Positions 734-52,578 of a DNA stretch of 64,000 bases are shown in pieces. Made by a program: the position numbers and the translations under genes. Under the pieces are notes generated by a model, which saw only the letters and a list, made by a program, of their open reading frames with translations, had not been told where the DNA came from and searched no databases. Source of the stretch: a virus; the IMG/VR virus record IMGVR_UViG_3300025410_000010, positions 1 through 64,000 of that record; one strand, given 5' to 3'. Numbering within the stretch: the stretch's first letter is position 1; every line of letters begins with the position of its first letter.

Positions 734-1492
734 ATGAATATTTATAGCACATATTTTCTCACAAACAAATATACAAATTGGTATCTTGCCATTATTGAGA
801 AAGCCAAATCCGAAAATAGATCCAAAAAGTTCGATGGCACTTTAGAATCTCATCATATTTTTCCAAAATCTTTAGGAGGAAGTAATTCTAAAGATAATCT
901 CGTTCTTCTTACTTGTAGAGAACATTATATTTGTCATCTATTATTAACAAGAATGGTTATCGGTGATCCGAAATATAGAATGTTATGTGCGTATAAAAGA
1001 ATGTCAACGAGTAATAGATGGCCTACAAAACTTAATTCAAAATTATATACAGCAATTAAAGAAGAACATGCGAGTATGGCTAAAGATCGTTATAAGGGAA
1101 AACCTCGACCTGAGCATGTCCGTGAAGCACTAATAATAAGAAATACAGGTAGAATTGTTTCCGAAGAAACTCGTTCTAAATTGCGGTCCTTATGGAAAGG
1201 ATCTAAAAGAACAGAGGAAGATCGCCGCAAAATTTCATTAGGTCAAACAGGTATAAAGTTTAATGAGGACCGAAAGAAAAATCTTATAAAAGGTAGATGT
1301 ATTAAGTTCTTACAAAAGTTTTATATACATTATGATAAACTTACTGAAGAAACATTTAATGATGCTAAAAACAAAGAGTTAATCAAAAGAAGAACCTGTT
1401 TGTCTTTAGCATCAATAGAGAAGTATTTAGGATCTATACCTTCAAAGGAAGATATTCTCCCGTCTCCATATGCCGAACAGCAAGAAGAATAA
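734..1492 (+). CDS. HNH homing endonuclease inserted in the RNA ligase
   Basis: 252 residues. The N-terminus has an HNH-type core (ESHHIFPKSLGGSNSKDNLV, then CREHYICH), and the middle has NUMOD3-like basic repeats (GKPRPEHVREA, KGSKRTEEDRRKIS, GIKFNEDRKK) typical of DNA-binding segments of phage homing endonucleases. The ATG at 734 is chosen because AGGAG lies 7 nt upstream; the reading frame opens at an upstream TTG with no ribosome site. It lies antisense between the two halves of the RNA ligase, and its last 59 nt overlap the 3' end of the N-half gene. It probably spread by homing into the ligase gene. Confidence 0.85.
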   Translation: MNIYSTYFLTNKYTNWYLAIIEKAKSENRSKKFDGTLESHHIFPKSLGGSNSKDNLVLLTCREHYICHLLLTRMVIGDPKYRMLCAYKRMSTSNRWPTKLNSKLYTAIKEEHASMAKDRYKGKPRPEHVREALIIRNTGRIVSEETRSKLRSLWKGSKRTEEDRRKISLGQTGIKFNEDRKKNLIKGRCIKFLQKFYIHYDKLTEETFNDAKNKELIKRRTCLSLASIEKYLGSIPSKEDILPSPYAEQQEE

Positions 1493-2069: not shown

Positions 2070-2097
2070 ATAATAACACCTTTAAGAACTATGTCAA
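2070..2097 (-). promoter_or_regulatory. promoter, leaderless geometry, RNA ligase N-half
   Basis: TTGACA, 16 nt, TATTAT, then only 6 nt (AACACT) before the ATG at 2063. Transcription would start at or within 1-2 nt of the ATG. Confidence 0.75.
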
Positions 2098-3101
2098 GAC
2101 TTAACTAGATTGTCAACAAATTGATCTGTTGCTGCGTCCCAGGAAAACTTTTGGGCACGAGCGATAGCATCTTCTTTCTTCAAGCATTGAAAAGATGCTA
2201 ATATACCTTCTTCAAGATCAAATTTCATTAATGATCCAGAAATACCATCTTCAATAAGGTAACGATTAACTTCATTATCGAATCCAGCAACAGGTAATCC
2301 ACAAGCCATAGCCTCCAATACAACAAGTCCAAATGTATCCGTTAGCGAAGGCCAAGCAAAGACATCCATTGTTTGTAATAATTTAGCAATTTCTTCATGT
2401 GTCTTCTTACCAAGAAAAAAAGCATCAGGATATAATACTTTATAGGAATCTAATTGTGGTCCGTCACCAATGACATATTTTATGATATTAGGATTTTCTA
2501 TTTTGAGAAATGCTTCTAGATTCTTTTCGGCACTAACTCTACCAACGTAGACAGCACGAATAGCAGATCCTTGTCTCTTAAAATTAGGATCTGGTTTGAA
2601 TAGATTTGTATCAACACCCCTTGACCAGATTGTTAGGTGTTTGATGCCCAGTTTAGAACAATAGTTAACCATGGCGGCGTTTGTAACGAGAACAGAACTG
2701 CTGTTTCGATGAAACCAACGAAAATACCGACCAGTAACTCTGGGTGGAATATAAGCATGTTCATAAAGGTAGTCTGGAAATTTAGTATGAAAACTTGTAG
2801 TATATTTCTTTTTTTGTTTTTTACAGGCGTATCTGGCAGCAAGTCCAATTGATCCCTCCGTCGCTATATGAATATAATCTGCGTCCTCGAGTGCATCTTC
2901 AACAAGACCAAGAGGAAATATTGGCATATAGATACCAGTTGAAGGTTGAAGAGGAACTGTAACCTTATAGTCATCTGGTCCAATTATTGTAACAGTATAA
3001 CCTCTTAATTCAAGACATTTTTTAGTTTGTTCAATTGTATATTTTACGCCATTTATTTGATTCTTACTCGAAGCATCTGAAAAAATAACAATTTTCATCA
3101 T
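2094..3101 (-). CDS. agt: GT4 glycosyltransferase, Agt-like (glycolipid synthesis)
   Basis: 335 residues, GT-B fold. It carries signatures I associate with the Agt family that transfers glucose or glucuronate to diacylglycerol during phosphate starvation: NGVKYT near the start, HIATEGSIG, TTSFHTKFPDY, WSRGVDTNLFKP, YVGRVSAEKNLEAFL, GDGPQ, and the nucleotide-sugar site DTFGLVVLEAMACGLPVAGF. Length fits Agt. It lies downstream of a PlcP-like phosphoesterase (3811-4554), the usual partner, with an HNH gene between them. Expected site is the cytoplasmic face of the inner membrane. Alternative: another GT4 enzyme such as a mannosyltransferase. Confidence 0.8.
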   Translation of the reverse strand: MMKIVIFSDASSKNQINGVKYTIEQTKKCLELRGYTVTIIGPDDYKVTVPLQPSTGIYMPIFPLGLVEDALEDADYIHIATEGSIGLAARYACKKQKKKYTTSFHTKFPDYLYEHAYIPPRVTGRYFRWFHRNSSSVLVTNAAMVNYCSKLGIKHLTIWSRGVDTNLFKPDPNFKRQGSAIRAVYVGRVSAEKNLEAFLKIENPNIIKYVIGDGPQLDSYKVLYPDAFFLGKKTHEEIAKLLQTMDVFAWPSLTDTFGLVVLEAMACGLPVAGFDNEVNRYLIEDGISGSLMKFDLEEGILASFQCLKKEDAIARAQKFSWDAATDQFVDNLVKS

Positions 3102-3814
3102 TTATCCTCTTTTATTCTTCCTGATACCCAGTCATTGCCTGGGAAAGTTTTTGTAAAAACATTATTAATTCCATTATTCCACCATTTGAATCCTTTAGAG
3201 CCACTAACCTCTAACCTCCCAATGGTCCAACCATTGCCTGGACATTCCTTTGATTGTTTATTTTTCTGTCCATTATTCCACCAGTTAGTTCCAGTTGCTC
3301 GTCTTTTATTAGATTCGCTAACTATTTTAGAAAGTTTTTCACGATGTTCCTTTTTTTGGAAAACGTGTTTTCCTTTTTTAGATAAGTCGCTTTGTGTTTT
3401 TGAATTTCTTTCGGATAACTTTTTTCTATTTTTTTCTAATTGTGCCGGATGTTTACCTTCTTTTGCTAATTCTTGTAATCTTTTGCTATTTATTTCGGCA
3501 ACCATAGCAACAAATTCTGGATTAAGAAAAATATGTTCTTTATCTTCTACTTTTTTCTTTTCGCGGCGACTAGCAATATCTGATCTCTGCTCTGGAGTTA
3601 ATGTCATATGCCCTGTTTTGAATAAAGCATAACAAGCACCCCAGTCTCCTTGAGAGAAATGAATATTAAAATGATCTTGTACTGATACGCATTGTAAGTT
3701 ATCTATATGATTGTTTAGATGATTTCCATCCTTGTGATGAATATGATAGCCTTTTGGGATAGAACCATGATGATTTTCATAAATCTTGCGATAATTTTTT
3801 TCTAAATTACTCAT
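3098..3814 (-). CDS. HNH endonuclease between plcP and agt
   Basis: 238 residues. The N-terminus is an HNH_3-type core (KGYHIHHKDGNHLNNHIDNL, then DHFNIHF). The middle is basic and helical. The C-terminus carries two copies of a WWNNG...PGN.W..GR repeat (about residues 178-200 and 212-233), probably DNA-recognition units. Both ends overlap the neighbours by ATGA: its start overlaps the plcP stop and its stop overlaps the agt start. It is therefore co-translated within the lipid operon, although homing endonucleases have no known part in lipid metabolism. Confidence 0.85.
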   Translation of the reverse strand: MSNLEKNYRKIYENHHGSIPKGYHIHHKDGNHLNNHIDNLQCVSVQDHFNIHFSQGDWGACYALFKTGHMTLTPEQRSDIASRREKKKVEDKEHIFLNPEFVAMVAEINSKRLQELAKEGKHPAQLEKNRKKLSERNSKTQSDLSKKGKHVFQKKEHREKLSKIVSESNKRRATGTNWWNNGQKNKQSKECPGNGWTIGRLEVSGSKGFKWWNNGINNVFTKTFPGNDWVSGRIKEDK

Positions 3815-4554
3815 AAGAACCTCAACAACTCAAACTTTCCATTGTGATGTTCAACTATAGCAGTACATGATTCTACCCAGTCACCTGTATTCATATATTG
3901 TATGCCGTTCATCTCTTTGATATTACAAAAATGTATGTGACCACATATAACTCCGTCAACACATTTTTTAGCAGCATAGTCTGAAACAACATCTTCGTAA
4001 TCACCAATAAAGTTTACTGCTTCTTTAACACTATGCTTTGCCCAAGCACTTAATGAGAAACCTTTAATATCCAAAGTTCTATAAAGCCATTGTAATTTTG
4101 TATTAAGTTCAATCATACAATCATATGCCCAACTGCCGATATGAACTAACCATTTAGCGTTAGTGGTAACAAGATCAAATTGGTCACCATGGATAACTAG
4201 ATATCTTTTTCCATTCTCACCGTGATGGATACATTCATTTACAAGATGAATATTTCCCATTGTGGTTCCACCGTATTCTCTTAAGAACTCATCGTGATTA
4301 CCTGTTATGTAAAAAACCTTGTGATCGTTTTTGGATAGTTTTAGAAAGTATTGTACTATGTTATTATGTGCTTGTGGCCAGTACACTTTCTTCTTCATAG
4401 ACCAACCATCAATAATATCACCGATTAGATAGTATCTTTCGGCTCTTGTATCTTTTAGAAATTCTAGGAGTAATTCGGCGTTGGCGTATTTTGTACCTAA
4501 ATGTACATCTGAGATAAAGATTGATCTATATTCTTTTCTGTTTCTCTGTGTCAT
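3811..4554 (-). CDS. plcP: PlcP-like metallophosphoesterase (phospholipase C)
   Basis: 247 residues with the complete calcineurin-type metal site: DVHLG, GDIID, GNHDE, VIHGDQFD and GHIH, plus DWVESCTAIVEH near the end. The extended segments (YYLIGDIIDGW, YWPQAHNNIVQ, WLVHIGSWAYD, SVKEAVNFIGDYE) match the LpxH-related PlcP family, which hydrolyses phosphatidylglycerol or phosphatidylethanolamine to diacylglycerol under phosphate limitation, rather than true LpxH. The agt-like gene downstream would consume the diacylglycerol. An AATAAATA late-like box lies 7 nt upstream of the ATG. Alternative: a UDP-diacylglucosamine hydrolase. Confidence 0.8.
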   Translation of the reverse strand: MTQRNRKEYRSIFISDVHLGTKYANAELLLEFLKDTRAERYYLIGDIIDGWSMKKKVYWPQAHNNIVQYFLKLSKNDHKVFYITGNHDEFLREYGGTTMGNIHLVNECIHHGENGKRYLVIHGDQFDLVTTNAKWLVHIGSWAYDCMIELNTKLQWLYRTLDIKGFSLSAWAKHSVKEAVNFIGDYEDVVSDYAAKKCVDGVICGHIHFCNIKEMNGIQYMNTGDWVESCTAIVEHHNGKFELLRFL

Positions 4555-4561: not shown

Positions 4562-4569
4562 TATTTATT
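4562..4569 (-). promoter_or_regulatory. T4-late-like box upstream of plcP
   Basis: AATAAATA on the minus strand, 7 nt before the plcP ATG, one base from the T4 late consensus TATAAATA. No sigma70-like -35 is evident. Confidence 0.4.
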
Positions 4570-10171: not shown

Positions 10172-11122
10172 ATGAAACATTCTTATATTCTATTAGATCA
10201 TCAAAATCCTTTAAATAAAAACTGGTTTGTAGTTAACTGGTGTTTAGGTAATACCTGTAATTTTTCTTGTAGTTACTGTCCAGAAGGGTTACACGATGGT
10301 TCTAAAAAATGGCCAGACATTGGAGCAGTTAAAAACTTTGTTACTAAAGTTGTAAATCAAGTTGCTCCAAAAAAAGTTTATTTTGAATTTACTGGTGGTG
10401 AAGTTACATTGTATAAACACTTTACAGAACTTTGCCAACATGTAACATCGTTAGGAGCAAGGGTTGGACTTATTAGTAACAGTTCAAGAACTATTAAATG
10501 GTGGGAAAGTCATAAACAATATTTTGATCATGTATGTTTAAGTTTTCATCCAGAATATGGTAATCCAGAACATTTTTTAAATGTAATTAAACTTTTGCAT
10601 AATGATTTAAGAACACATGTTAATATTATGATGGCACCAGATAAATTTGATTTCTGTTTAGAAATTGCCAATAGAGCCGTTGAATTAGGAAATATATCAT
10701 TTGCTATCCAACCCCTAATACATGACTTTGGATCTGTTCTTTATGATTATACCCCTGAACAAAAAAATATCATTGACAAACAATGGGATTTGATAGGGAA
10801 AAAAATAAAACATACAAAACATTTTGATATCTATCGAGGAGCAATGAGCGAAGTTTATATGAGTGGTAGAAAAATTTCACTCGGTGCTCATGTCTTTATT
10901 AATGAAAAAACTAATGATTGGTCTGGTTGGAAATGTTGGGCAGGCGTAGAGCAAATAATTGTTGACATGGATGGTTTTGTTTATAGAGGTTGGTGTAAGG
11001 TTGGTGGTATTGTTGGAAGAATAGATGATCCTTACGTTCAAATACCTAAAGATCCTATCATATGTAATAAAACAATGTGTCATTGTAATTTCGATATTAT
11101 GTCTACTAAAGAGAGATTCTAA
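10172..11122 (+). CDS. radical SAM enzyme 1
   Basis: 316 residues. The [4Fe-4S] motif is CNFSCSYC (about residues 30-37), followed by the SAM-binding FTGGEVTLY (about 75-83). The C-terminus has further cysteines (CWAG, WCKVGG, CNKTMCHC) suggesting a second, twitch/SPASM-like cluster. First of four radical-SAM genes in a row; its stop overlaps the next start. Substrate unknown; the class modifies peptides, sugars or lipids. Confidence 0.85.
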   Translation: MKHSYILLDHQNPLNKNWFVVNWCLGNTCNFSCSYCPEGLHDGSKKWPDIGAVKNFVTKVVNQVAPKKVYFEFTGGEVTLYKHFTELCQHVTSLGARVGLISNSSRTIKWWESHKQYFDHVCLSFHPEYGNPEHFLNVIKLLHNDLRTHVNIMMAPDKFDFCLEIANRAVELGNISFAIQPLIHDFGSVLYDYTPEQKNIIDKQWDLIGKKIKHTKHFDIYRGAMSEVYMSGRKISLGAHVFINEKTNDWSGWKCWAGVEQIIVDMDGFVYRGWCKVGGIVGRIDDPYVQIPKDPIICNKTMCHCNFDIMSTKERF

Positions 11123-12426
11123 TGGATAGAGAAGAACGAAAGAAAACTATTTGCACTATTCCTTGGACTCATAGTGCTGTTTATCAAAATGGTGATTATG
11201 GTATTTGCTGTATGTGTGTTTACAATTCAGGTGGTAGATTATTTACAGAAGAAAAGGCTTCTAATATTGCAGAAACCGATATCGATGTTGTACGTAATCA
11301 TCCAACATATGTTGAACTCAGAAAGAGTATGTTAGCCGGAGAAAAACATCCTATCTGCAAATTGTGTTGGGACGAAGAAGACCTCGGAGGAAGACATTCA
11401 AAAAGACAAGGACAACAATTTTTCTATAAAGATACTTTAGAAAAAATATTAGACGAGGCAGATCCAACAGGACATATAGATAACGAAAAATTTCCTGTTC
11501 AATATTTAGATTTAAGACTTGGAAATCTTTGCAATCTTGCATGTCGCAGTTGTGGTCCAGATAATAGTAGTCTTTGGGTAGATTATCAATACGGTCGTCA
11601 ATTTACAATTAATGGCAGACCCGGAACTTATGAGATTATAGAAGAAAATAAGATTCTTAAAATTAAACAAGATGATTTCAATTACTGGAAAAAACCAGAA
11701 CTTGATGATTTCTTACATAAGGTTTTACCTACAGTTAATAGAATATATTTCACCGGTGGCGAGCCTTTGATTAATAAGAAACATTATGAAATTTTAGATT
11801 ATTGTATTGAAAACGACTTTGCTAAAAATATCGAGATAGAATATAATACAAACGGAACTACACTTAATAAAAATCTATTAGAACAATGGAGACAATTTAA
11901 ATTAGTTGATGTTTGCTGGTCCATCGATGCTATGGGAGATCTTGCACATTATGTTAGATATCCTAGTGATTGGAATGTCATTGAACGTAATTTAAGAATG
12001 TTTGATGAGATTGATATTCCGCATTTATATGGTAGCACTAATGCTACTATTAGTATTTTTAATATTATGCATCTACCTGAATTTGCTACTTGGTTTTATG
12101 AACAAAAATTTAAGAAATTTAGACCAAATCTTAACTGGCATCGTTTAGTATTTCCACGTTCTTATTGTGTGCAAACTATTCCACCATATGCTAAAAAAAT
12201 GATCACTGAGTATTATGATTCATACATTGCAAACAGTGATATACCGGATTTAGAATATAATATATATAATATTATTAAATTCATGAACCAACAGGATAAT
12301 TCAATATTCATGCCTGAGTTTAGAACACTACTCGATCGTCAAGATGAACTTCGAAATCACAATGTAAGGGATTATATTCCCTGGTTAGGAAAGGTATTAG
12401 ATAATCCGTCGTCATGGCTAAGTTAG
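11122..12426 (+). CDS. radical SAM enzyme 2 (twitch/SPASM type)
   Basis: 434 residues. The N-terminus has a cysteine cluster CTIPW...NGDYGICCMC, the SPASM/twitch element placed first, then CKLCWDEE. The core radical-SAM motif is CNLACRSC (about residue 136), with FTGGEPLI (about 213). This layout matches a radical-SAM clade I associate with marine T4-like phages. Overlaps the next gene by 13 nt. Confidence 0.85.
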   Translation: MDREERKKTICTIPWTHSAVYQNGDYGICCMCVYNSGGRLFTEEKASNIAETDIDVVRNHPTYVELRKSMLAGEKHPICKLCWDEEDLGGRHSKRQGQQFFYKDTLEKILDEADPTGHIDNEKFPVQYLDLRLGNLCNLACRSCGPDNSSLWVDYQYGRQFTINGRPGTYEIIEENKILKIKQDDFNYWKKPELDDFLHKVLPTVNRIYFTGGEPLINKKHYEILDYCIENDFAKNIEIEYNTNGTTLNKNLLEQWRQFKLVDVCWSIDAMGDLAHYVRYPSDWNVIERNLRMFDEIDIPHLYGSTNATISIFNIMHLPEFATWFYEQKFKKFRPNLNWHRLVFPRSYCVQTIPPYAKKMITEYYDSYIANSDIPDLEYNIYNIIKFMNQQDNSIFMPEFRTLLDRQDELRNHNVRDYIPWLGKVLDNPSSWLS

Positions 12427-14417
12427 ATCCAGATCTACTAAAACAAATCGAAGAGGCTAAAAGATTATTAACAGGTGATAGAGATCAAATTCTTAAAGAT
12501 CAAATTCTTAAAGATGAGATTTCTAAAAAACCCAATCATGCCAATTCTCATCTCGGTTCTCCTCTAACAAAAAATAATAAAGTTTCTTTTAAAAATCCCA
12601 AAGTCAAATGGTCAAAAACTAATCTATATAGAATATCTATGGTAATTGCTCCTTCTTGGGGAGTACTATTTCCTCCATATAATGTAGCAAAATTAACTTC
12701 ATTATTAAGAAAAGAAGGTTATAGTGTTAAGGCATATGATGTTAATATTGAATGTTATCATCTATTAACAGAATTAACAGGTGAAGACTATTGGAGAGGT
12801 GAAAGATTCTTTTATTGGGTTTTCAAAGATAATTTTGAAAAATACATATTTGATAAAATTAAACCGGTATTAGATAAAACAGTTAATGATATATTAAAAA
12901 GTAATGTTAAGGTTGTAGGCTTTAGTGTCTATAATACTAATGTTCATGCTACTATATACATGGCAAATAAAATAAGAGAACATAATAAAGATATTTGTAT
13001 TATTGTAGGTGGACCAGAAACTATTACAGGACTACATGCAATTTTAAAAAAAGATAAAGAATGTATCAATTATTTCTTTATAGGTGAAAGTGAAGAAAAT
13101 TTATTAAATCTTTTATCTAATCTTCCAAAAAAACTTCCTTCTAATGAAATAGTTGGATCTACTAAAAGTAGACTTTCTTTAGAGAAATATCCATATCCAG
13201 ATTATTCAGATTATAACCTAGAAAATTATTTGGTTTACGGAATTAGTATGGAAACTTCTCGTGGATGTGTTGCCCAATGTTCTTTCTGTGCTGAAACTTA
13301 TTTTTGGGATTTCAGGAGTTTAAAAGCAGAACGTGTGGTAGATGAAATAGAATATCAAGTTAATAAACATAATGTTTTGAGAGTATGGTTTGTAGATAGC
13401 CTTATCAATGGTAATATTAAAAACTTTGAGAGAATAGTTGATCTTATTATTGAAAGAAAATTGCATATAAATTGGAATAGTTATGCTAGATGTGATGGAA
13501 GAATGGATAAAGAATTCTTCAAGAAAATTAGACAAAGCGGAGGAGTTGGTCTTAGTTTTGGGGTCGAATCAGGAAGTCAAAAAATACTAGACGATATGAG
13601 AAAGAAAATAAAAATCTGGGAAATAGAAAATAATTTTAAAGACAGTTATGAATCTGGAATTCATACCCATGCTAATTGGATGATAGGATTTGCCACAGAA
13701 GAACCTATCGATCATTTTCATAGTATGCAACTTTTATTTAATATTAGAAAATATATGAAAGCAATTAGTCCTGGAGCTACTGCTGGAATTGCTGCTCAAA
13801 GTCATTCAGTTACTAATTATGAAGAATATAATATTATTGGAAATGGAACAAGTCCTTCTTATAACTCATTTTTAAAATCTTGGTCTACTAAAGATTTCAA
13901 AAATACAATAGTTCATAGATTTCTTAGACTTAAAATGTTTCATATTTGGTTACAAATAATAGATCAATATAGTGGTAGTATTATATCTAATTCTCATGGA
14001 TATAATATTAAAGATCATTATGAGTTTTCTTTTATAGAAAATTTAGAAATAGAAACTCAAGAACAAGATTTTAAAGTAAACTTTTTTCAATTCGACAATA
14101 ATCTTGAAGGATCTATTGCAAATGAATATGTTGCTTTTTGTTATATGTTGACAAAATACTTTAAAGGCGTAAAATTTCAGTTTAGGTGTGATCCTGACAA
14201 AGATATTTTATTGTTTGGAGATTTACTCGCAAGAAGATATACTACTAACGTATTATTTGAAATAGACGAAGATGATAATTTTCAATTAACTATCGATCAC
14301 GAATTAGAAGAATTCTTTAAAGAAAAGATAGTTAGAAAAGGTCATATAAGTGATTGGAAAACAGATAAAGAAGTTGTAAGAGAGACAATACATGAGCAAT
14401 ACAGAAAAAAACTTTAG
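12414..14417 (+). CDS. B12-binding-type radical SAM enzyme 3
   Basis: 667 residues. The N-terminal 240 residues form a B12-binding-like Rossmann domain (SVYNTNVHATIYMANKIREH, IIVGGPETI). The radical-SAM motif is CVAQCSFC (about residue 284), then VRVW-like strands and SFGVESGSQKILD. The last 200 residues are phage-specific. Such enzymes methylate or rearrange unactivated carbons; substrate unknown. It overlaps the next gene by 26 nt. Confidence 0.85.
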   Translation: MAKLDPDLLKQIEEAKRLLTGDRDQILKDQILKDEISKKPNHANSHLGSPLTKNNKVSFKNPKVKWSKTNLYRISMVIAPSWGVLFPPYNVAKLTSLLRKEGYSVKAYDVNIECYHLLTELTGEDYWRGERFFYWVFKDNFEKYIFDKIKPVLDKTVNDILKSNVKVVGFSVYNTNVHATIYMANKIREHNKDICIIVGGPETITGLHAILKKDKECINYFFIGESEENLLNLLSNLPKKLPSNEIVGSTKSRLSLEKYPYPDYSDYNLENYLVYGISMETSRGCVAQCSFCAETYFWDFRSLKAERVVDEIEYQVNKHNVLRVWFVDSLINGNIKNFERIVDLIIERKLHINWNSYARCDGRMDKEFFKKIRQSGGVGLSFGVESGSQKILDDMRKKIKIWEIENNFKDSYESGIHTHANWMIGFATEEPIDHFHSMQLLFNIRKYMKAISPGATAGIAAQSHSVTNYEEYNIIGNGTSPSYNSFLKSWSTKDFKNTIVHRFLRLKMFHIWLQIIDQYSGSIISNSHGYNIKDHYEFSFIENLEIETQEQDFKVNFFQFDNNLEGSIANEYVAFCYMLTKYFKGVKFQFRCDPDKDILLFGDLLARRYTTNVLFEIDEDDNFQLTIDHELEEFFKEKIVRKGHISDWKTDKEVVRETIHEQYRKKL

Positions 14418-15699
14418 ACTAAACAAGAGTAAAGTATTTTGTATGGCACCTTGGGTTAGTATTAATAATAACCCAAACGGTGATATACTTCCATGTTGTG
14501 TTGCTCGAGATGGAGTCTTTGGAAATCTTTATAAAGATAGTATCGAAGATATTTGGAACAACGAGAAATATAAAGAATTTAGAAAAAATATATTAGAAGA
14601 AAAAGAATGTCCCCAATGTGAAAGATGTTATAAAGAAGAAGAATGGGGAAGTATGTCTAGTTATAGGAAACACTGGAATCAACTATATTACAACAAATAC
14701 GATGAATTGATTCCTAACACCGAACCCGACGGACATTTAGATTCAATGAATCTCTATAGATGGGATTTTCGTTTTAATAATCTCTGCAATCTTGCTTGTG
14801 TTGGTTGTGGACCCGATTATAGTAGTAGTTGGGTTGAACTAAAAAAAAGAATGTGGCCAAATGATGCAGATGACTTTAAAATCTACAGTAGTAAAGAAAA
14901 TAAAGAAAATTTTATTAATACAATTAAAACACAGGCAAAAGTTGTAGATAATATCTATTTTGCAGGTGGGGAGCCATTATTACATCCCGAACATTATGAA
15001 ATACTTTCTGAATTAAATAGGTTAGAAAAATTAGATAAAGTAGAATTTATGTATAGCACTAACTTAACTAATCTTTATTACAAAGATCATTATATCGTTG
15101 ATTATTGGAATAAAATGAAAAGATGTAAAGTAATCGTTAGTATTGATGAGGTTGACCCAGAAAGATTACATTATATAAGATACCCCTCAGATAGAGATGC
15201 AATTGTTAATAACATTAAAATAATAAATCAATCATTAAATAGCGTTGATAAACATTGGTCTATTACTCCGACTTGGAATATTCTAAATGCACATAGAATG
15301 AAAGATATTATAGAATTTTTCTATTTGAACGATTTATTTCCTTATGCTTTCTACAATTCAGTTGCATGGGACGTTGATATAGCTACAATCATATTAATGC
15401 ATCCTAAACATTTATCGATATCTATTGCAACCCCAGAATGGAAAGAATATCTAAATCAAAAATTCAACGAATTTGAAGAATGGTATATTGATACTTTAAT
15501 TCCTTTGAAAAATTCTAATGTGAGAGTATTTGCTACAAAAATTATTAAAGGAAATATGGAAAAATTTAGAAACGCTCTAAAAGAATCTAATGAGAATAAA
15601 AATTTTAAATTCTGGTATCAAAGAATGGACGATGTTAGAGGTACAGACTTTTGTAAGACTTTTCCAGAACTTACTTGGCACATAGACCAATTATTCTAA
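14392..15699 (+). CDS. radical SAM enzyme 4 (twitch/SPASM type)
   Basis: 435 residues, clear paralogue of enzyme 2: FCMAPW...NPNGDILPCC at the N-terminus, CPQCERC, CNLACVGC (about residue 131), FAGGEPLLHP (about 195), and a shared RYPSD segment. It ends against a convergent gene (overlap 9 nt), closing the radical-SAM operon. Confidence 0.85.
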   Translation: MSNTEKNFRLNKSKVFCMAPWVSINNNPNGDILPCCVARDGVFGNLYKDSIEDIWNNEKYKEFRKNILEEKECPQCERCYKEEEWGSMSSYRKHWNQLYYNKYDELIPNTEPDGHLDSMNLYRWDFRFNNLCNLACVGCGPDYSSSWVELKKRMWPNDADDFKIYSSKENKENFINTIKTQAKVVDNIYFAGGEPLLHPEHYEILSELNRLEKLDKVEFMYSTNLTNLYYKDHYIVDYWNKMKRCKVIVSIDEVDPERLHYIRYPSDRDAIVNNIKIINQSLNSVDKHWSITPTWNILNAHRMKDIIEFFYLNDLFPYAFYNSVAWDVDIATIILMHPKHLSISIATPEWKEYLNQKFNEFEEWYIDTLIPLKNSNVRVFATKIIKGNMEKFRNALKESNENKNFKFWYQRMDDVRGTDFCKTFPELTWHIDQLF

Positions 15700-16657: not shown

Positions 16658-17012
16658 ATAGACTTGCTAATACTATAAACTTATCCCAAGCATCTTGTGC
16701 GGGTTTAGGCATATCTTTTTGATCAAGTATAACTCGCATCCATATCTTACTTCTTGGCATAGAAGGAGGTTGTACTCCAAATCTTCTAGGTTGATGTATT
16801 TTACCCGACTTCCATAATGTTGTTAATATATTTTTCAATTTATCCTTATCATAGTCGTACCAAGGCCCCATATGTTGATACTCGGTGATAAGTTGATCTA
16901 TACTATCAAGATCAAAGTAAGTTCTTCCTATGATAAGAAGTATATCATCAGGATCAACTTTATCTTCCATTATATCAGATATACATCTCGATATACTAAA
17001 TCCTATTAACAT
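16638..17012 (-). CDS. conserved T4-like phage protein
   Basis: 124 residues beginning MLIGFSISRCISDIMEDKV, with IIGRTYFDLDS; resembles a small protein seen in T4-like marine phages. ATG 17012 is chosen over 17069 because AGAGG lies just upstream. Overlaps both neighbours by about 20 nt. Confidence 0.65.
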   Translation of the reverse strand: MLIGFSISRCISDIMEDKVDPDDILLIIGRTYFDLDSIDQLITEYQHMGPWYDYDKDKLKNILTTLWKSGKIHQPRRFGVQPPSMPRSKIWMRVILDQKDMPKPAQDAWDKFIVLASLYGAKGD

Positions 17013-17742
17013 TGAGCCTCTCTTTAGATATTTTTCTAATTTGATTGTACAGTCTAGAAGCAAATTCAATATTCGATCTAGGACCCGGGTGCATGTTATC
17101 TCTAGCTACATCTAATTTAGTGTCATGATACATGATATCGGCATTAAAGTCTATCTGTTGTATGTTCAATAAATTCATATATGATATATCTATATCATTA
17201 ACAGCAGGGTGGAATATCATATAACTGTCTAATTTTTCTAACAACAAATTTAACATTACAAAATCTTTTTCAGTTTGATAAGATATAAATTCTTCTTTTA
17301 AAAATGTTTTATTAAGCTTATCATACATCGGAGTTGGAGTATTAGCAGTAAAATAATCTCCAACCCATCTTTCTCTTCTTTCAATATTAGGAAGATAACA
17401 AATTACAATTTGTGGATGTAACATATCCCCATAATGATAAAGATATTTGACAATATGATCTAATCCACTTGCTGCGGCAGATAGATTCCAGAAAGGCATA
17501 AGTCCAAAATCATCACAAAGGTTTTTATGAATAATCTTAGGCCATGTATTTTCTAATGATAAACCAACTCCTTCCGAATAACTACATCCAGTGAATACTA
17601 CCCTTAACGGATGTTTCTCCCAGTGATCAAAGTCGTCACATCTAAAACCATAATTGTTGAATTTATATTTTATATGTTTTCCTTTGCTTGGATCATATTG
17701 ATCCGTTGCAAGAACAATGTCTTGAGTATTTGCTCGATACAT
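16996..17742 (-). CDS. SGNH-hydrolase-like protein, GCS type (A1)
   Basis: 248 residues. Putative nucleophile block VFTGCSYSEGVGL (about residues 49-61) and C-terminal Asp-His block ARDNMHPGPRSN, as in SGNH/GDSL esterases. KFNNYGFRCDDF precedes the nucleophile, shared with 20419-21195 and 21185-21976. No signal peptide. Likely an esterase or acyltransferase acting on a glycan or lipid; substrate unknown. Confidence 0.75.
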   Translation of the reverse strand: MYRANTQDIVLATDQYDPSKGKHIKYKFNNYGFRCDDFDHWEKHPLRVVFTGCSYSEGVGLSLENTWPKIIHKNLCDDFGLMPFWNLSAAASGLDHIVKYLYHYGDMLHPQIVICYLPNIERRERWVGDYFTANTPTPMYDKLNKTFLKEEFISYQTEKDFVMLNLLLEKLDSYMIFHPAVNDIDISYMNLLNIQQIDFNADIMYHDTKLDVARDNMHPGPRSNIEFASRLYNQIRKISKERLNVNRI

Positions 17743-20399: not shown

Positions 20400-20427
20400 A
20401 TTTAAACATCATTTTTTATTATGTCAA
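20400..20427 (-). promoter_or_regulatory. promoter, leaderless geometry, BFD-like gene
   Basis: TTGACA, 16 nt, TTAAAT, then 6 nt and the ATG at 20393. It overlaps the 3' end of the upstream SGNH gene. Confidence 0.6.
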
Positions 20428-21195
20428 GCCTAACTTTTCTGATATATTTGGCCAAAAAATTTCAAAAGCAGTATTGGCAAATAACTCATTTGATTTTGGC
20501 CCGGCATGCATATTGTCCCTAGCAAGATCCAATTGCATTATGAATAATTCTTTATAGATAAAATTCGAAAGATTAAGATTTTCTACTTTATACTCCTCAA
20601 ACTGTCTCGAATATAAAAAATGTGCATCTATTTCTTCACACATTAGATTAATCATAACTAAATTTTTTTCAGTTTGATAATTAACCAATTGCTCATTCGT
20701 TAAAAAATCTGTATCTTTTTCTCTTTCCAGAGACCAAACACTCCAGCGATCTTCATGCCATCGTTCACGTCTAACAGAACTAGGAATGTAACATATTATA
20801 ATTTGTGGACGTAATAGATCCTTTAAATTATAAAGATAACGAGTCATATGATCCAACCCAGTTCCACCTGATGCAATACTCCAATAAGGTATTTCTTGAT
20901 TTAATTCTTTACAAATCATGCTATGTAACTTTTTGGTCCATAGGTCTTCTAGCGGAAGTCCAATGCCTTCAGTCATACTGCATCCTGCAAATAAAATTCG
21001 ATAAAGATACTTTTCCCAACTATCAAAGTCATCACATCGAAATCCATAATTATTGTATTTGTAAGTAATATCGTTTGGCCCATAAGGAACTAAGTCTTTG
21101 ACTTTTGTATAATTCTCTTCAGTATCCATGGGCATCCACTGAAATGTTTTGTTGGCAACAATGTCTCTTCTGATATCTAAAAATTCAGGAATCAT
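20419..21195 (-). CDS. SGNH-hydrolase-like protein, GCS type (A2)
   Basis: 258 residues. KYNNYGFRCDDF, then nucleophile block LFAGCSMTEGIGLPLEDLW, and Asp-His block LARDNMHAGPKSN. Same family as 16996-17742 and 21185-21976. Start overlaps the upstream paralogue stop by 11 nt, so the pair is co-translated. Confidence 0.75.
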   Translation of the reverse strand: MIPEFLDIRRDIVANKTFQWMPMDTEENYTKVKDLVPYGPNDITYKYNNYGFRCDDFDSWEKYLYRILFAGCSMTEGIGLPLEDLWTKKLHSMICKELNQEIPYWSIASGGTGLDHMTRYLYNLKDLLRPQIIICYIPSSVRRERWHEDRWSVWSLEREKDTDFLTNEQLVNYQTEKNLVMINLMCEEIDAHFLYSRQFEEYKVENLNLSNFIYKELFIMQLDLARDNMHAGPKSNELFANTAFEIFWPNISEKLGLT

Positions 21196-21976
21196 TTAAT
21201 TTTTCTCTTATGTAAGGATAAAAATCATTAAACATTCTTTCAGCAAATAATTTATTTGATTCCGGACCAGCATGCCACCCATCTCTCCCAAGATCAATAA
21301 ATTCCAATCGATGATCGACATTCTTAAATTTTGAAAATGTTATGTTACTAAGATCATAATCGGAATCGATTTTTGAATAGAGAAATAAACTATCCCATCT
21401 ATTCATAAGGAGATCAATAAATGATAAATTCTTTTCGGTTTGATATCTAATATATTCTTCTTTGAGAAATATCTTAGCAGTATTCTTATCTTCCTTTGTA
21501 TAAGTTAACCAAGGTCCCCAATGGTCTTCACTCCATCGCTCTCTTCTCTCAAATCTAGGTAATAAAGATATTACTATCTGTGGACGTAATTCATTGCCTT
21601 CCAAATATAAATGTTTTACTAAATGATCCATACTGGCACCACTATGTGCAATGCTCCAAAAAGGTATTGGACCCAATTGATCACAAAGCATGTTGTGAAA
21701 TAGTTTTGCCCAGGTTTTCTCTAGAGGAATACCCACTCCTTCGGTTTCACTGCATCCTGCAAATAAAATCCTAATTGGATGATTTTTCCAGTTACTAAAA
21801 TCATCACAACGAAATCCTCTATTATTAAATTTGTAAACAACTTCTCCAGGGTTATATTGAACTTGTGGATTGTCCTTTACTTTATTGTACTGTTCTAAAG
21901 TATCTGTATAAAACCATCCATGAGTCGTATTGTATATTTTGAATCGATCAGAATTTAAAAATTGATGTTTGAGCAT
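21185..21976 (-). CDS. SGNH-hydrolase-like protein, GCS type (A3)
   Basis: 263 residues. KFNNRGFRCDDF, LFAGCSETEGVGIPLEKTW, and LGRDGWHAGPESN give the same three blocks as its paralogues. It is divergent from the porin gene, with about 43 nt between starts. Confidence 0.75.
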   Translation of the reverse strand: MLKHQFLNSDRFKIYNTTHGWFYTDTLEQYNKVKDNPQVQYNPGEVVYKFNNRGFRCDDFSNWKNHPIRILFAGCSETEGVGIPLEKTWAKLFHNMLCDQLGPIPFWSIAHSGASMDHLVKHLYLEGNELRPQIVISLLPRFERRERWSEDHWGPWLTYTKEDKNTAKIFLKEEYIRYQTEKNLSFIDLLMNRWDSLFLYSKIDSDYDLSNITFSKFKNVDHRLEFIDLGRDGWHAGPESNKLFAERMFNDFYPYIREKLNDS

Positions 21977-22019: not shown

Positions 22020-23399
22020 ATGGTTAAATCCAAGACTCTAGGGTTAATATTCCTTTTGGCTGCTACTCCTGCTTGGGCTGATCACAGTCCTAAATTTGAT
22101 TGGCCTTGGAAACTAGACGACTCTAATCCACTTAGCACATTAACCATCAACGGACTTGTGCTTGATACTGTGCAAGGTTATCCAACTTATAAAAATAACG
22201 TTGATCCAAATAATCCTTTCAATAAAGGTCAAGTTGACAATATGGTTAAGAGCAGTTTCTATCTTGGTATGAAACTTTGGAAAGGTGCTAGTGTTTATAG
22301 CAATACAGAAATATACCAAGGTTATAACATTTCAAACAATATAGACTTTGCTAACAATGTTAATTCCACAGTTCCAAATGTAAACACTAATAATCCTTAT
22401 ATGCAATTACAAAGATTATTCTTTAGACAAGTAATTGACATAGAAGGCGAAGATACTATTATGCCAGACTTTAGCGGCACACGAAGTGATGCACTTGCTT
22501 CAGTTGAACAGAAACTTGCTGATAAAGTTTCTGAAAATACCCTAACATTTACATTTGGTAAGTTTGCTGTTGGCGATATATTTGATGGTAACATATATGC
22601 TCACGACCCAACTAGAAAGTTTATGAATCAATCCTTTTCTGGATTTGACTCTGTTGACTATGTTGGTAATTCTTGGGGTACTACTGTTGGTGCTATGTTT
22701 GATTGGCATTATTATAATTGGTCTTGGAGAACAGGTATATTCCAGGGATCACTACCACCACCTAGTAATAATATAGATCCAGTTCCCTTAAGACAATATA
22801 TGTTAATATCAGAACTAGAAAGAAGATATCATTTATTCGATAATCCCGGTAGTCTTAAACTAATTGGTTATAGAGATTACGGATATCTAGATCAGAATGG
22901 AGGATACCAAGGTCTTAACAGTCTTATTGATTATGTAAATGGAATTAATAGAACTGAACTTAACGATCTAATGCGAAGAACTGTATTTGGTATTGGTGTT
23001 AATCTACAACAACAATTAGCAGACGGCATTGGATATTTTATGAGAGCAGGTATGGATAATAAGTCTGTATCAATATCTGATATTACTCATACATTCAGTA
23101 ATGGTCTTGTGTTTGACGGGAAGTTATGGAATAGACCCGGAGATGAGATTGGTGCTGCATTTGGTATACAACATATTAAAGGAAATAACATCTTCAATAA
23201 TAATGATCTCAGTTTTACCCCATATGGAGCAGGATCAGCAGGATATGCTGCTCAGAAAACTATAGAAACTTATTACAAATGGACTATTAACGATAGACTT
23301 GCTATAACTGCTGATTATCAACGTGTTATTAATCCTAACTTTAATAGTCAAAGTCATTCTGCTCATGTTTTTGGAATACGTTTGAGGGCTAATTTTTGA
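22020..23399 (+). CDS. OprB-like outer-membrane porin
   Basis: 459 residues. Signal peptide of about 20 residues ending AWA. The mature part is rich in alternating aromatic strands. The C-terminal third (ETYYKWTINDRLAITADYQR, NPNF, then GIRLRANF ending in Phe) matches carbohydrate-selective OprB porins, including the terminal beta-signal. It would be inserted in the host outer membrane. Length fits OprB. Possible purposes: superinfection exclusion or altered uptake; both inferred. Confidence 0.75.
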   Translation: MVKSKTLGLIFLLAATPAWADHSPKFDWPWKLDDSNPLSTLTINGLVLDTVQGYPTYKNNVDPNNPFNKGQVDNMVKSSFYLGMKLWKGASVYSNTEIYQGYNISNNIDFANNVNSTVPNVNTNNPYMQLQRLFFRQVIDIEGEDTIMPDFSGTRSDALASVEQKLADKVSENTLTFTFGKFAVGDIFDGNIYAHDPTRKFMNQSFSGFDSVDYVGNSWGTTVGAMFDWHYYNWSWRTGIFQGSLPPPSNNIDPVPLRQYMLISELERRYHLFDNPGSLKLIGYRDYGYLDQNGGYQGLNSLIDYVNGINRTELNDLMRRTVFGIGVNLQQQLADGIGYFMRAGMDNKSVSISDITHTFSNGLVFDGKLWNRPGDEIGAAFGIQHIKGNNIFNNNDLSFTPYGAGSAGYAAQKTIETYYKWTINDRLAITADYQRVINPNFNSQSHSAHVFGIRLRANF

Positions 23400-28353: not shown

Positions 28354-28745
28354 CTAACGAATGGAGATCTTGGCCTCAGGTACAAATAGATATTACGTAC
28401 CGCTACGAGGCTGTGGAATGGCTGACAAAGAACTGTCCAAAAGATGAATTTGTTCCAGTCTATCACGGCTCCATAGCTTCGAAGATTGCCATTAAGAGTG
28501 ACAAGTATATTACATATATGCTAATAAAGTATACTGCTGAATTACTTCTTTGTGAAGATGATCAAGAACGAGATCGCAAAGAAAAAAATGCAGCAATGGA
28601 CGCAGAAATTAAAAGGCTTCTCAAAGAAATAACAGAGAAGATTAAAGATACAAATGTAACTGATAATATTTTTAGGGAGAATATAAAAGAGCGTTTGCTC
28701 TATAGTAAAGGTAAAATAATTGGAGAAAAGAATGTTAAAAAGTGA
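28350..28745 (+). CDS. small protein, TTG start, LRFS-tail family plus helical tail
   Basis: 131 residues. TTG start at a TTGA overlap. First 70 residues match the family (YEAVEWLTKNCPKDEF, YITYMLIKYTAEL), followed by a charged coiled-coil-like tail. Overlaps the next gene by 14 nt. Confidence 0.6.
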   Translation: MTNEWRSWPQVQIDITYRYEAVEWLTKNCPKDEFVPVYHGSIASKIAIKSDKYITYMLIKYTAELLLCEDDQERDRKEKNAAMDAEIKRLLKEITEKIKDTNVTDNIFRENIKERLLYSKGKIIGEKNVKK

Positions 28746-29559
28746 AAAGATTCTGCTGAGTGCGACAGCAATGACCACGCTACTGGCAATTGGATGCTTC
28801 ATCCTTGCTGAGCCAAAGAAAAGCGAAGAGATTGCTAAAGAAATGCCCAAAGCAGCAGATGTTGCTATTTCACGTAATCCATTTGGACCAGTCTTAGTTA
28901 ATCTAAAAGGTGATAAACCTAAGACTGAAGAACTAGTCCCCGAGAAACATACTGCTCGTGAGGTTATTAAAAATGTAGTGGCACACATTCCAACACCCCC
29001 ACATAAGCCTAAATTCAAACAGGCCTATCAAGCTATTGCTGCTCACTTCAAGACTACTAAAGATGTAGAGCCACAACAAGAGCAACCACAAGAAGCCTTG
29101 GCATACGCACCCCAAGAGAACTTAGCAGAAAAACTATTTGGAGTGGTACGTAGACTTACACAACCCGCAAGTGATATACAGGCCCAACCAGGTATGGCTG
29201 TTTATAAGATTACAGATCATAAAGTATATCTCCCAGACGGTACCCAGATAGAAGCACATAGTGGCCTAGGACAGATGCGTGATAATCCACGCTACACCCA
29301 TGTTAGGATGCGTGGACCTACACCACCACACATATACGATCTATCATGGCGTGAACGACCCTTCCATGGCGTGAAGGCCATTAGGCTCAACCCTGTTGGG
29401 GGCTCGAAAGAAATACATAATAGAGATGGCTTACTGGCCCATACATATATGCTGAACCCCGAGGGTGCTAGTAATGGGTGCGTATCCTTTAGAGACTATA
29501 CCCCATTCCAAAGAGCATTTGAGAAGGGTCTGATTAAACGATTGGCGGTAATACCATAA
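28732..29559 (+). CDS. DUF2778/Tlde1-like peptidoglycan enzyme, membrane-anchored
   Basis: 275 residues. N-terminal signal-anchor (about 5-24), a Pro/Gln-rich linker (to about 155), then a DUF2778-like L,D-transpeptidase fold: VYLPDGTQIEAHSGLG, HTYMLNPEG and the catalytic ASNGCVSF (Cys about residue 248). The family includes Tlde1 effectors and phage lysins that act on peptidoglycan stems in the periplasm. Start chosen at 28732 for GGAG. Possibly the lysis enzyme, or a cell-wall modifier. Confidence 0.75.
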   Translation: MLKSEKILLSATAMTTLLAIGCFILAEPKKSEEIAKEMPKAADVAISRNPFGPVLVNLKGDKPKTEELVPEKHTAREVIKNVVAHIPTPPHKPKFKQAYQAIAAHFKTTKDVEPQQEQPQEALAYAPQENLAEKLFGVVRRLTQPASDIQAQPGMAVYKITDHKVYLPDGTQIEAHSGLGQMRDNPRYTHVRMRGPTPPHIYDLSWRERPFHGVKAIRLNPVGGSKEIHNRDGLLAHTYMLNPEGASNGCVSFRDYTPFQRAFEKGLIKRLAVIP

Positions 29560-45711: not shown

Positions 45712-45996
45712 ATGCCTTTCTTTATCTTATCAATAATAGGTGGCGCTGCCTTTACTTATATACTTAGAGAGACTGATACAGTTATACCAGCCTTTATAGT
45801 GTTTGTGGTATTCACTTGTCTACTCTATATATGGCCCATAGGCGCATTCTACTTTGCTGCTCTCGTTATGGGGCTGCTGGCGCTGTTACTGGCTATTGCT
45901 TACTGGGAATTGGTGGCCGGAATTATACTGTCCTTGATGCTATTCATATTCTTCCTCTTTGGCGCACTACATGCGATAAATGTACTTGCCAAATGA
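45712..45996 (+). CDS. polytopic membrane protein
   Basis: 94 residues, nearly all hydrophobic, three or four membrane helices. Unknown function; might be a holin-like or uptake-related protein. Confidence 0.65.
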   Translation: MPFFILSIIGGAAFTYILRETDTVIPAFIVFVVFTCLLYIWPIGAFYFAALVMGLLALLLAIAYWELVAGIILSLMLFIFFLFGALHAINVLAK

Positions 45997-46100
45997 AATT
46001 CTTTCTAGCCATGCTCACAATCATAACTGCTACTACAGTTATCCCAGATCGGGATAATTGGGCTAATCAAGAATGTCACTACGAGGAAGAATGTGAATGA
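45993..46100 (+). CDS. 35-residue secreted peptide
   Basis: Signal-like N-terminus MKFFLAMLTIITATTV, then acidic stretch with CHYEEEC. ATGA overlaps at both ends. Confidence 0.55.
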   Translation: MKFFLAMLTIITATTVIPDRDNWANQECHYEEECE

Positions 46101-46738
46101 GATATCTTATAACAGGTACTAATAGAGGACTAGGTAGAGCACTAACTGATCAATGTAGACTCACAGGACACGAAGTTTGTGCTATGACCCGCAGAGAATG
46201 GGACGTGAGACAATCATATAGATTTGGCGACGCAGATAGATTCCAACGGCTGATTGTTAATGCTGCTGTAAAAGATGGCGAGAATACTCTATACTCAAAC
46301 CCAGATACTATACTAGATGTAATCAATGTCAATGCTGTGGGCGCACTGAGAACGGTACAGTCAGCAGTCCCACATCTAGAACCCGAGAGTCGTATTGCTG
46401 TTATTAGTTCAGAGATGGGTAGCTCTGTACTAACAGGTGGCGTTACTGTATATGGCCGCTATGGTGAACATCATATCGATCCCACATACAGTCTAGGATA
46501 TAGAATGAGCAAGGCTGCTGTACATAAACTGGTACAATGTTTAGCAGTTGATCTTAAACCCAAACGAATATTTGTCTATGCAATCGATCCAGGTTGGGTC
46601 AAGACAGATATGGGAGGTCAATTCGCTACACTAGAACCCACAAGGTCAGCAGAAGAAGTTTTGAGAACTTTAGAGAATCTCCCTGAAGACTTTAGTGGAC
46701 GGTTCTTCGATTGGAAAGGCAATCCACTCGAGTGGTGA
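46097..46738 (+). CDS. short-chain dehydrogenase/reductase
   Basis: 213 residues. Nucleotide motif TGTNRGLGRAL (residues 6-16), NAA (about 53), SSEMG (about 97) and the YRMSK active site (Tyr about 136, Lys 140). Minimal classical SDR; substrate unknown. It is ATGA-coupled to the small peptide gene. Confidence 0.8.
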   Translation: MRYLITGTNRGLGRALTDQCRLTGHEVCAMTRREWDVRQSYRFGDADRFQRLIVNAAVKDGENTLYSNPDTILDVINVNAVGALRTVQSAVPHLEPESRIAVISSEMGSSVLTGGVTVYGRYGEHHIDPTYSLGYRMSKAAVHKLVQCLAVDLKPKRIFVYAIDPGWVKTDMGGQFATLEPTRSAEEVLRTLENLPEDFSGRFFDWKGNPLEW

Positions 46739-46903
46739 CCGGTATGAACAGAGTGGGGTGGCCGGCTTAGTAAGCAAGTCTATTGTTTACATACAAACAA
46801 GCCTAGTGGGTAAAAATCACCACCCGGCCGATAAACTTTCCGTATATTTAAAAAAATGCGCGACCAATTTTTTTCCTGTGTCTATAGGTCGGGTCCCCTA
46901 CAG
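46739..46903. other. intergenic, convergent ends
   Basis: Between convergent genes. GGCCGG and CCGGCC form a 6-bp stem (about 46763/46825), and CGACC...GGTCG another near 46860-46893 with a T7 run inside. Probably a bidirectional termination region; no gene seen. Confidence 0.4.
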
Positions 46904-47140
46904 TTATAAGTAGTCTACTTCTAGATGTTCCATATAAGCAATAAAGTAATAAGCATCATCTGCGTATTCAAAAGCAATCACGTAATTATTATTACTAGCA
47001 TAAGCAACGTGTGATTCGTCAAAGGGCTGATCTTTAGTTGTCAACCAATCACGTATTTGTTGTGGAATAATAATGTTTTTATTCATCTCCACTGTATAGA
47101 TATAGTGGGAAAAGGGTCTAGTATATGCTTTCATGGTCAC
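46904..47140 (-). CDS. small protein, related to the LRFS-tail family
   Basis: 78 residues; IRDWLTTKDQPFDESHVAYA and DDAYYFIAYMEHLEVDYL parallel the family core. ATGA-coupled to the SGNH gene upstream. Confidence 0.6.
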   Translation of the reverse strand: MTMKAYTRPFSHYIYTVEMNKNIIIPQQIRDWLTTKDQPFDESHVAYASNNNYVIAFEYADDAYYFIAYMEHLEVDYL

Positions 47141-47931
47141 CCAAAATCTGGTGCAGCAGCAAATTCACGTTCTATAAATTTTGGGCTCTGTATTGTTTTA
47201 TGAGTAATAATACCTTCAACAAACTCTGTTTTAAAGTCTAGAGGAATCTTATAAGATATATTATTCACTATTTTGTTAGTTAGTATAGCATGATTAGTCC
47301 AAGTCAAATGATTGTATTTTCCATCCATACCAATTATATCATGTATACGTTCAAAGTACCATTTTTCATATTCATTACTATGTACATTAGTTAAGGGCAT
47401 ATTGGGCCAGTGAAAGTTATTAAATTTATGTCTATAATCTGTATTCAACCATTCGTATTCGTAGTACATAAGTGGTAGCAGTATAGTATGTAAGTTTTTT
47501 TCTTTAGTTAAGTGATCAAGATTGTATAAGAAGTCTATACAGTAAGTTTCGTATAATTCCTCATGATTTAGATGTATCAAGTAGTATTTTACAGCCTTCA
47601 TAAACTCTGCGCTTGTATGTTGTTCTGATATTGATTTTTTATTATTAAGCATAGTATTATTCGGTTTATCTTTAATAAACCATCTTCTAAACAAATTACT
47701 TATACCCACTATCAAAATGTCATTATCTTGTATATTATCGCGTTCTTGTCTAAACATATGATATGTATAATCTGGGCTCGAACCTGGGCATCCATGATTA
47801 ACAACTGATTGATTTAGTTGTTCTCCAATTGCTCTAATCCAAGGTTTAATACCTCGTTTCTTTTGTTCTGATTTATAATTTAAATTTTTAAAATCGCCGA
47901 TAAAGCTATCGCCAAACGCCCATATAGTCAT
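47137..47931 (-). CDS. GDS-type SGNH-like protein (B1)
   Basis: 264 residues. Nucleophile block WAFGDSFIGD, oxyanion Gly region GCPGSSPDYTYHMFRQERDN, IVGISN before RRWF, and C-terminal DGKYNHLTWTNH. All SGNH elements appear present, so it is probably active as an esterase or acyltransferase. No signal peptide. Confidence 0.75.
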   Translation of the reverse strand: MTIWAFGDSFIGDFKNLNYKSEQKKRGIKPWIRAIGEQLNQSVVNHGCPGSSPDYTYHMFRQERDNIQDNDILIVGISNLFRRWFIKDKPNNTMLNNKKSISEQHTSAEFMKAVKYYLIHLNHEELYETYCIDFLYNLDHLTKEKNLHTILLPLMYYEYEWLNTDYRHKFNNFHWPNMPLTNVHSNEYEKWYFERIHDIIGMDGKYNHLTWTNHAILTNKIVNNISYKIPLDFKTEFVEGIITHKTIQSPKFIEREFAAAPDFG

Positions 47932-47935
47932 GTTA

Positions 47936-48709: not shown

Positions 48710-48784
48710 TATAAACTCCAAATAATATTGTGTTTTAATTAAATTTGTGTTATATTTATAAGCACTAATATGAGGAGCAATTTT

Positions 48785-49186
48785 ATGGATCAATTGCGGA
48801 ATGTATTCAATACCATGTATAGTTGGGATGGTTCATTAGGTCGATTAGAGTATTTCATGTATGGTTTATTATCGTCGTTAGTCAGTTGTATTTTATTAGC
48901 CTTGATCAATCCAGTATTAGATTCAGAAGGCTCTTTCTTTGTAGTATTAAGTATATCTTTACTGTTATTAGCCTTAAGCAACGCCGCATATACATCAGTA
49001 GTGTTAGTAATCAAGCGTCTACGTTCCATGGGGCTTGACACTGTACATATATGGTGGATAAGTGGATTATGGTTAGTAACGAGTATACATAGTTATGGGG
49101 AGCCCGAGAGTATTGTGACTTATTGTTTAGTTGCGATTGATTTGTTAGTATCTTTGTGGTTACTCTTTACGCCCGCAAAAAAGTAA
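48785..49186 (+). CDS. DUF805 membrane protein
   Basis: 133 residues, four membrane helices, with GSLGRLEYFMYG at the start and VIKRLRSMG in the middle, the two DUF805 signatures. GAGGAG site. Function of the family is unknown; it interrupts the SGNH array on the opposite strand. Confidence 0.8.
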   Translation: MDQLRNVFNTMYSWDGSLGRLEYFMYGLLSSLVSCILLALINPVLDSEGSFFVVLSISLLLLALSNAAYTSVVLVIKRLRSMGLDTVHIWWISGLWLVTSIHSYGEPESIVTYCLVAIDLLVSLWLLFTPAKK

Positions 49187-50336: not shown

Positions 50337-50347
50337 GTGTTATTTAA

Positions 50348-50355: not shown

Positions 50356-50359
50356 CATT

Positions 50360-50710: not shown

Positions 50711-50714
50711 CTAT

Positions 50715-52577: not shown

Positions 52578-52578
52578 T

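Follow-up and report, generated by a model that had tools for sequence, protein, structure and literature searches.

A predicted plcP-agt lipid-remodelling gene pair, interrupted by an HNH endonuclease gene, in a T4-like phage of a probable type II methanotroph

The DNA analysed here (the window) covers positions 1 to 64,000 of a 95,384-base IMG/VR virus record, itself probably partial, that encodes the terminase, tail sheath, tail tube, UvsX, DNA ligase, and DnaB-like and other helicases of a T4-like myophage. Near its start a metallophosphoesterase gene (gene 1) and a GT4 glycosyltransferase gene (gene 2) flank an HNH endonuclease ORF, with an ATGA overlap at both junctions (Table 1). The original prediction held that genes 1 and 2 match, over their whole length, the plcP-agt pair of bacteria. 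Both genes are intact, their homology to the adjacent genes of methanotroph plcP-agt loci is full-length (50–53% identity for gene 1, 35–37% for gene 2), and the motifs to which that prediction appealed were all found, namely DVH, GDIID, GNHD and GHIH of metallophosphoesterases in gene 1 and the Agt signatures HIATEG, HTKFPDY and WSRGVD in gene 2. Both genes had been correctly recognised, but the ORF that separates them had been overlooked.

Table 1. Features of the plcP-agt locus in the window.
Feature	Position	Strand	Size or spacing	Basis
T4-type late promoter motif ATAAATA	4562..4568	-	7 nt 5′ of plcP start codon	read from sequence
PlcP-type metallophosphoesterase, gene 1	4554..3811	-	247 aa, intact	PF00149, PlcP side of tree, GDxxD/GNHD
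HNH endonuclease ORF between genes 1 and 2	3814..3098	-	238 aa	PF13392 4e-14; phrog_12324 intron-like DNA endonuclease
Agt-type GT4 glycosyltransferase, gene 2	3101..2094	-	335 aa, intact	PF00534/PF13439, Agt clade

Several other genes of the window were noted. A second HNH-like endonuclease, recognised by eye (HHIFPKSLGG), is encoded on the opposite strand at 734–1492 (+), and its end overlaps an RNA ligase gene at 1434–2063. Four consecutive large ORFs occupy 10172–15699 (+), the first belonging to the radical SAM superfamily (Pfam) and the other three being radical SAM/SPASM-like by eye; related genes are scattered in a 128.8-kb relative (G002), which also has, by eye, FtsH-, DnaK- and FadB/FadA-like (beta-oxidation) genes at 45719–47536, 69705–71594 and 125421–128772. 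The product of 28732–29559 (+) ends in a Tlde1 domain (PF10908, 1e-28) of the sort that occurs in effectors directed at peptidoglycan, and is possibly cell-wall modifying or lysis related, while a carbamoyltransferase gene (PF02543/PF16861) at 56195–57694 (-) is possibly involved in nucleotide or sugar modification. An array at 47137–54733 (-) consists of some seven or eight diverged paralogues whose common start, M[TI]xWxFGDS, looks SGNH/GDSL-like by eye; the single member tested had no Pfam match, and similar longer genes occur at 16996–17742 and 20419–21976.

Judged by its sequence, gene 1 is PlcP-type, a predicted phospholipase C that gives diacylglycerol, and is separate from LpxH. It scored 43.8 and 50.5 bits on two LpxH models with curated cut-offs of 190 and 134 (84–147 bits short), and its closest cellular relatives in six bacteria, among the matches listed in a genome scan biased to Pseudomonas, scored in the same range (37–56 bits). 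In two of these six, Pseudomonas and Azotobacter, the protein that did exceed the LpxH cut-off was encoded by a gene separate from the PlcP-type relative. A maximum-likelihood tree of 80 proteins with an LpxH outgroup placed the window phosphoesterase and 17 phage relatives in one clade (support 100/100) on the PlcP side, with PlcP-type neighbours from Alpha- and Gammaproteobacteria including Phaeobacter, Pelagibacteraceae, Pseudomonas and Bosea, and with LpxH set apart by very long branches. GDxxD and GNH occur in all 77 PlcP-type rows checked, whereas the two rows from LpxH show GDxxE and GNR; gene 1 carries D49 and H87 at these diagnostic positions, where LpxH has E and R (GDxxE/GNRD). An LpxH assignment of gene 1 was rejected on the cut-off scores, the separate LpxH genes, the tree and D49/H87. 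A wider form of that reading, in which an LpxH-type UDP-diacylglucosamine pyrophosphatase and an LPS or EPS transferase would make up a surface-sugar or lipid A module, could appeal to the closest solved folds to the phosphoesterase model, which belong to LpxH and in several cases contain lipid X, to the LpxH-like annotation of relatives in cultured phages, and to the UDP-sugar dehydrogenase and epimerase genes upstream of the pair in one relative (L002). Since the model is of low confidence (44–67) over residues about 121–190, a helical would-be lid, the lid is unusable as evidence for a lipid site. With the missed cut-offs, the long branches to LpxH, the lack of its specific E and R, and a glycosyltransferase that falls inside the Agt clade and apart from other GT4s, we give the surface-sugar or lipid A module a very small probability.

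Gene 2 is an Agt-type GT4, predicted to be a diacylglycerol glycosyltransferase. In a tree of 81 GT4s, the viral and plcP-adjacent cellular glycosyltransferases formed a single clade (100/98), separate from the 16 other GT4s included. The best match was the gene directly downstream of plcP in eight of the nine bacterial genomes with a match, and where a second match existed the plcP-adjacent agt led it by 66 to 164 bits (214 versus 50 in G255); the exception, P. protegens, had no glycosyltransferase match beside plcP. The functional residues of the Pelagibacter enzyme GTcp have been probed by mutation (PMC8231724), and 14 of the 14 checked are kept in the window glycosyltransferase (T162 conservatively as S), including the catalytic His-Asp dyad and H104, R163 and W320, which GTcp needs for diacylglycerol (DAG). 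The model of the window protein is a confident GT-B fold (pLDDT 92); MshA and BshA are the closest structures, and PimA also ranks high. Calcineurin-like enzymes accept many phosphoester substrates and phage glycosyltransferases often modify DNA, and the locus might resemble plcP-agt in gene order only, the phosphoesterase acting on a nucleotide or signalling substrate in counter-defence and the glycosyltransferase on DNA or protein. None of the present results favours this reading, and we regard it as highly unlikely, given that both proteins lie inside lipid-enzyme families, that the partners are co-inherited (see below) and that the GTcp residues for DAG are kept. The grouping of the phosphoesterase with LpxH, or of the GT4 with LPS or EPS transferases, against which the original prediction had set itself, appeared neither in the trees nor in the residues or profile scores, and its PlcP-Agt interpretation is supported at the level of sequence. 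The stem of the phage clade is long in both trees (0.69 for PlcP, 1.05 for the glycosyltransferase), so substrate specificity may have drifted.

Alignment-based scans of IMG/VR gave at least 557 phosphoesterase relatives (80 kept) and 61 glycosyltransferase relatives; single-sequence scans gave one locus each, and alignments were needed for more. A phosphoesterase gene lies upstream in 33 of the 35 distinct viral glycosyltransferase loci with enough sequence, within 250 nt in 31 and with an insert in two. None of the 28 distinct window-clade loci lacks either gene, whereas flanking genes vary and the next commonest neighbour recurs in 11; this retention excludes chance occurrence. Outside the clade, an Agt-type glycosyltransferase gene is directly downstream of 17 of the 55 viral phosphoesterases with room for one; several separate viral lineages carry genes assigned by homology to plcP-agt. 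One candidate, L006 (a faecal ‘Bacteriophage sp.’), was left out as phage evidence because it is apparently a piece of a bacterial chromosome, with a polyphosphate-kinase-like ORF by eye. Across the clade, identity in one protein is correlated with identity in the other (Mantel r 0.43, 0 of 5000 permutations), and dN/dS is 0.03–0.16 for both genes in close pairs, indicating purifying selection. The presence of the same operon in host lineages could suggest that these are recently captured host genes carried as functionless passengers; however, the phage clade is deep and not nested among hosts, selection is purifying, and the pair has its own late promoter motif and is kept in 28 of 28 contexts, which leaves the passenger reading almost no probability. 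The depth of the phage clade in both trees rules out recent capture from the present host. Just 5′ of the pair in L002 (237–4183) are a UDP-glucose/GDP-mannose dehydrogenase family gene and two epimerase-family genes, which could supply UDP-glucuronate for Agt; the same contig has pmoC.

In relatives agt directly follows plcP on the same strand, and it is into this junction that the HNH gene of the window is inserted. The HNH gene is absent from L002 and L003, in which plcP and agt are directly adjacent, and the only other carrier found, L031, has a homologue at the same position. A near-identical relative of L031, L146, lacks it. Between these two contigs plcP agrees at about 80–100% but falls to 70–77% over its final ~180 nt, and the glycosyltransferase gene agrees at about 60% over its first ~540 nt and then mostly at 91–100%. 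The replacement tract (L031:6560–7980 versus L146) has sharp edges and spans the end of plcP, the HNH gene and the first ~540 nt of agt. This pattern, together with presence and absence between close relatives, is as expected from gene conversion around a homing event, and we take the HNH gene to be a free-standing homing-type insertion with putative cleavage activity. As read from the tract, such conversion exchanges between phages the greater part of the N-terminal half of Agt, on the acceptor side, and yields a predicted chimeric glycosyltransferase; in both HNH carriers the glycosyltransferase start is altered, with SDASSxxQINGVK instead of TDAWxPQINGVV. As the Agt catalytic residues survive conversion, the operon is probably still active, while the inserted gene could lower glycosyltransferase expression in the window phage.

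The sequences upstream of plcP differ between bacteria and phages. A Pho-box-like direct repeat, TGTCATCnnnnTGTGA, lies 108–161 nt 5′ of the plcP match in 12 of 12 methanotroph genomes (0.05 expected from shuffling), but such sites are at chance level in the phage clade (1 of 31, versus 0.4 expected), and there is none within 200 nt upstream of the window plcP. Instead, ATAAATA, the core of the T4 late promoter, occurs within 60 nt 5′ of plcP in 19 of 27 distinct loci, about 1% being expected per locus (these loci share ancestry and do not count as 27 independent observations). In the window phage this motif also stands in front of virion genes, among them those for terminase and tail tube. 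Because the clade lacks the Pho-box-like site and has a late promoter motif, the phage pair seems to be expressed late and to be uncoupled from phosphate sensing. The simple picture of an operon that answers to phosphate starvation therefore fails to transfer to the phage, whose pair has a T4-type late promoter motif and not the Pho-box-like site of its bacterial counterparts.

A type II methanotroph is the probable host. Many clade contigs carry a pmoC of the type found in the Bosea family (whose GTDB group we take to be Beijerinckiaceae), up to ~91% identical, and several have it within 2–3 kb of the plcP-agt pair. It is found in 9 of 17 long clade contigs versus 1 of 16 other viral contigs (p = 0.007). 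No pmoC was found in the window record (95 kb, probably partial), and no pmoC phage was matched among deposited phage genomes. The window phage also encodes an OprB-family porin at 22020–23399 (+), with a signal-peptide-like start, whose closest homologues (36–42%) are from pmoC-positive Bosea-family bacteria: the 34 best-matching genomes of 298 all fall within the 42 that are pmoC-positive. A porin gene is unusual in such a phage. The pmoC in relatives and these porin matches point to the host group named above rather than to the marine setting in which the pair had been expected. In type II methanotrophs agt follows plcP immediately; the plcP-agt pair of M. trichosporium OB3b makes glucuronosyl-DAG when phosphate is limiting, a plcP-agt mutant at low phosphate showing less methane oxidation and badly packed intracytoplasmic membranes (PMC9239053).

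The phage operon shares its two families and their order with plcP-agt of type II methanotrophs such as Methylosinus trichosporium OB3b (PMC9239053), the group to which the host likely belongs as well, but at the identities given above it forms its own deep clade, lacks the Pho-box-like site, has a T4-type late promoter motif and, in the window, an inserted HNH gene; in the phage clade the genes overlap or nearly do so, whereas the methanotroph genes are roughly 60–90 nt apart. The window glycosyltransferase shares GRVxxEKN, PSxTDTFG and the 14 residues with GTcp of Pelagibacter HTCC7211 and Agt (atu2297) of Agrobacterium (PMC8231724), but is phage-encoded and has an altered N-terminus (DASSKNQINGVK). 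The phosphoesterases of Pelagibacter phage Mosig EXVC030M and Synechococcus phage S-SRM01 are PlcP-type relatives (44% and 36%) annotated as LpxH-like; in these two cultured phages no Agt-type glycosyltransferase was found, the phosphoesterase standing alone. That of Mosig has ATAAATA upstream like that of the window, but adjoins a phosphate-binding gene. LpxH shares the metallophosphoesterase fold and a lipid-like substrate, but its motifs differ and it lies far outside in the tree; given the LpxH-like labels of relatives in phage databases, annotation has probably hidden the theme from view. Going by their published description, the pmoC phages of methanotrophs (PMC7674155) are large phages with a gene for a pMMO subunit, and pmoC is likewise present in many relatives of the window phage; the main text of that paper makes no mention of lipid, glycosyl or phosphoesterase genes, and nor does that of a second main paper on viral methane genes. 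Among the 5.4 million open-access papers searched, none dealt with plcP-agt carried as a pair by a phage, with plcP together with viral auxiliary genes, or with a Methylocystis phage and lipid remodelling. The enzymes and the operon are known in bacteria; the conserved phage pair and its changed control appear to be new.

Building on gene identity, pair conservation, catalytic residues, purifying selection, the upstream-site change and the homing tract, all of them sequence-based, we infer the enzyme activity, substrates, host, expression timing and benefit of the pair as follows. The operon, split by the homing endonuclease gene, would be translatable through the ATGA overlaps. Late in infection, phage-made PlcP would take the phosphorylated head group off membrane phospholipids to give diacylglycerol, to which Agt would add a sugar from UDP-glucose or UDP-glucuronate, so that the inner and intracytoplasmic membranes of the host would pass from phospholipid to glycolipid. 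The host would have its own Pho-regulated plcP-agt, and the phage copy would be freed from that control. The likeliest benefits, which present data do not separate, would be phosphorus for virion DNA and the keeping of pMMO-bearing membranes in working order as phosphorus is withdrawn. We consider it quite probable that the locus is a phage-borne lipid-remodelling operon of this kind, HNH-interrupted, late, uncoupled from host control and serving one or both of these ends.

A 150-kb genome contains 3×10^5 phosphates and a bacterium, to an order of magnitude, ~10^7 phospholipids, so membrane phosphorus would be enough to matter for the burst. Counting against scavenging, the product of PlcP in the predicted reaction is phospho-head-groups, not free phosphate. 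The phosphate-binding protein PstS was found neither in the window record nor in its clade, but only in Mosig and two distant records; a phosphate-scavenging gene set was rejected on this ground, and a purely phosphorus-scavenging reading is weakened by it without being refuted. The pmoC association and the mutant phenotype suggest the second benefit, preservation of pMMO membranes. The same lack of PstS, the late promoter motif that groups the pair with virion genes, and a host that already owns plcP-agt would also suit a lipid-remodelling pair that blocks superinfection or aids lysis through membrane change, with phosphorus and methane oxidation irrelevant. We think this unlikely: both the link with pmoC and the disturbed membranes of the plcP-agt mutant speak for a membrane role in methane oxidation, and we know of no exclusion system of a lipid-remodelling kind.

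To our knowledge, phage effects on host glycerolipids have hardly been studied. The remodelling operon proposed here is a two-gene, assayable pathway with which one could test directly whether phages draw phosphorus from membranes or safeguard a membrane that makes energy, with a bearing on methane oxidation if the host assignment is right. More tentatively, and with somewhat more doubt than confidence, we suggest that methanotroph phages may force a late conversion of methane-oxidising intracytoplasmic membranes from phospholipid to glycolipid irrespective of host phosphate sensing, coupling virion phosphorus to continued methane oxidation, many relatives having a phage pmoC. If true, this would represent a widespread and undescribed class of viral lipid metabolism, given that several distinct viral lineages have the pair.
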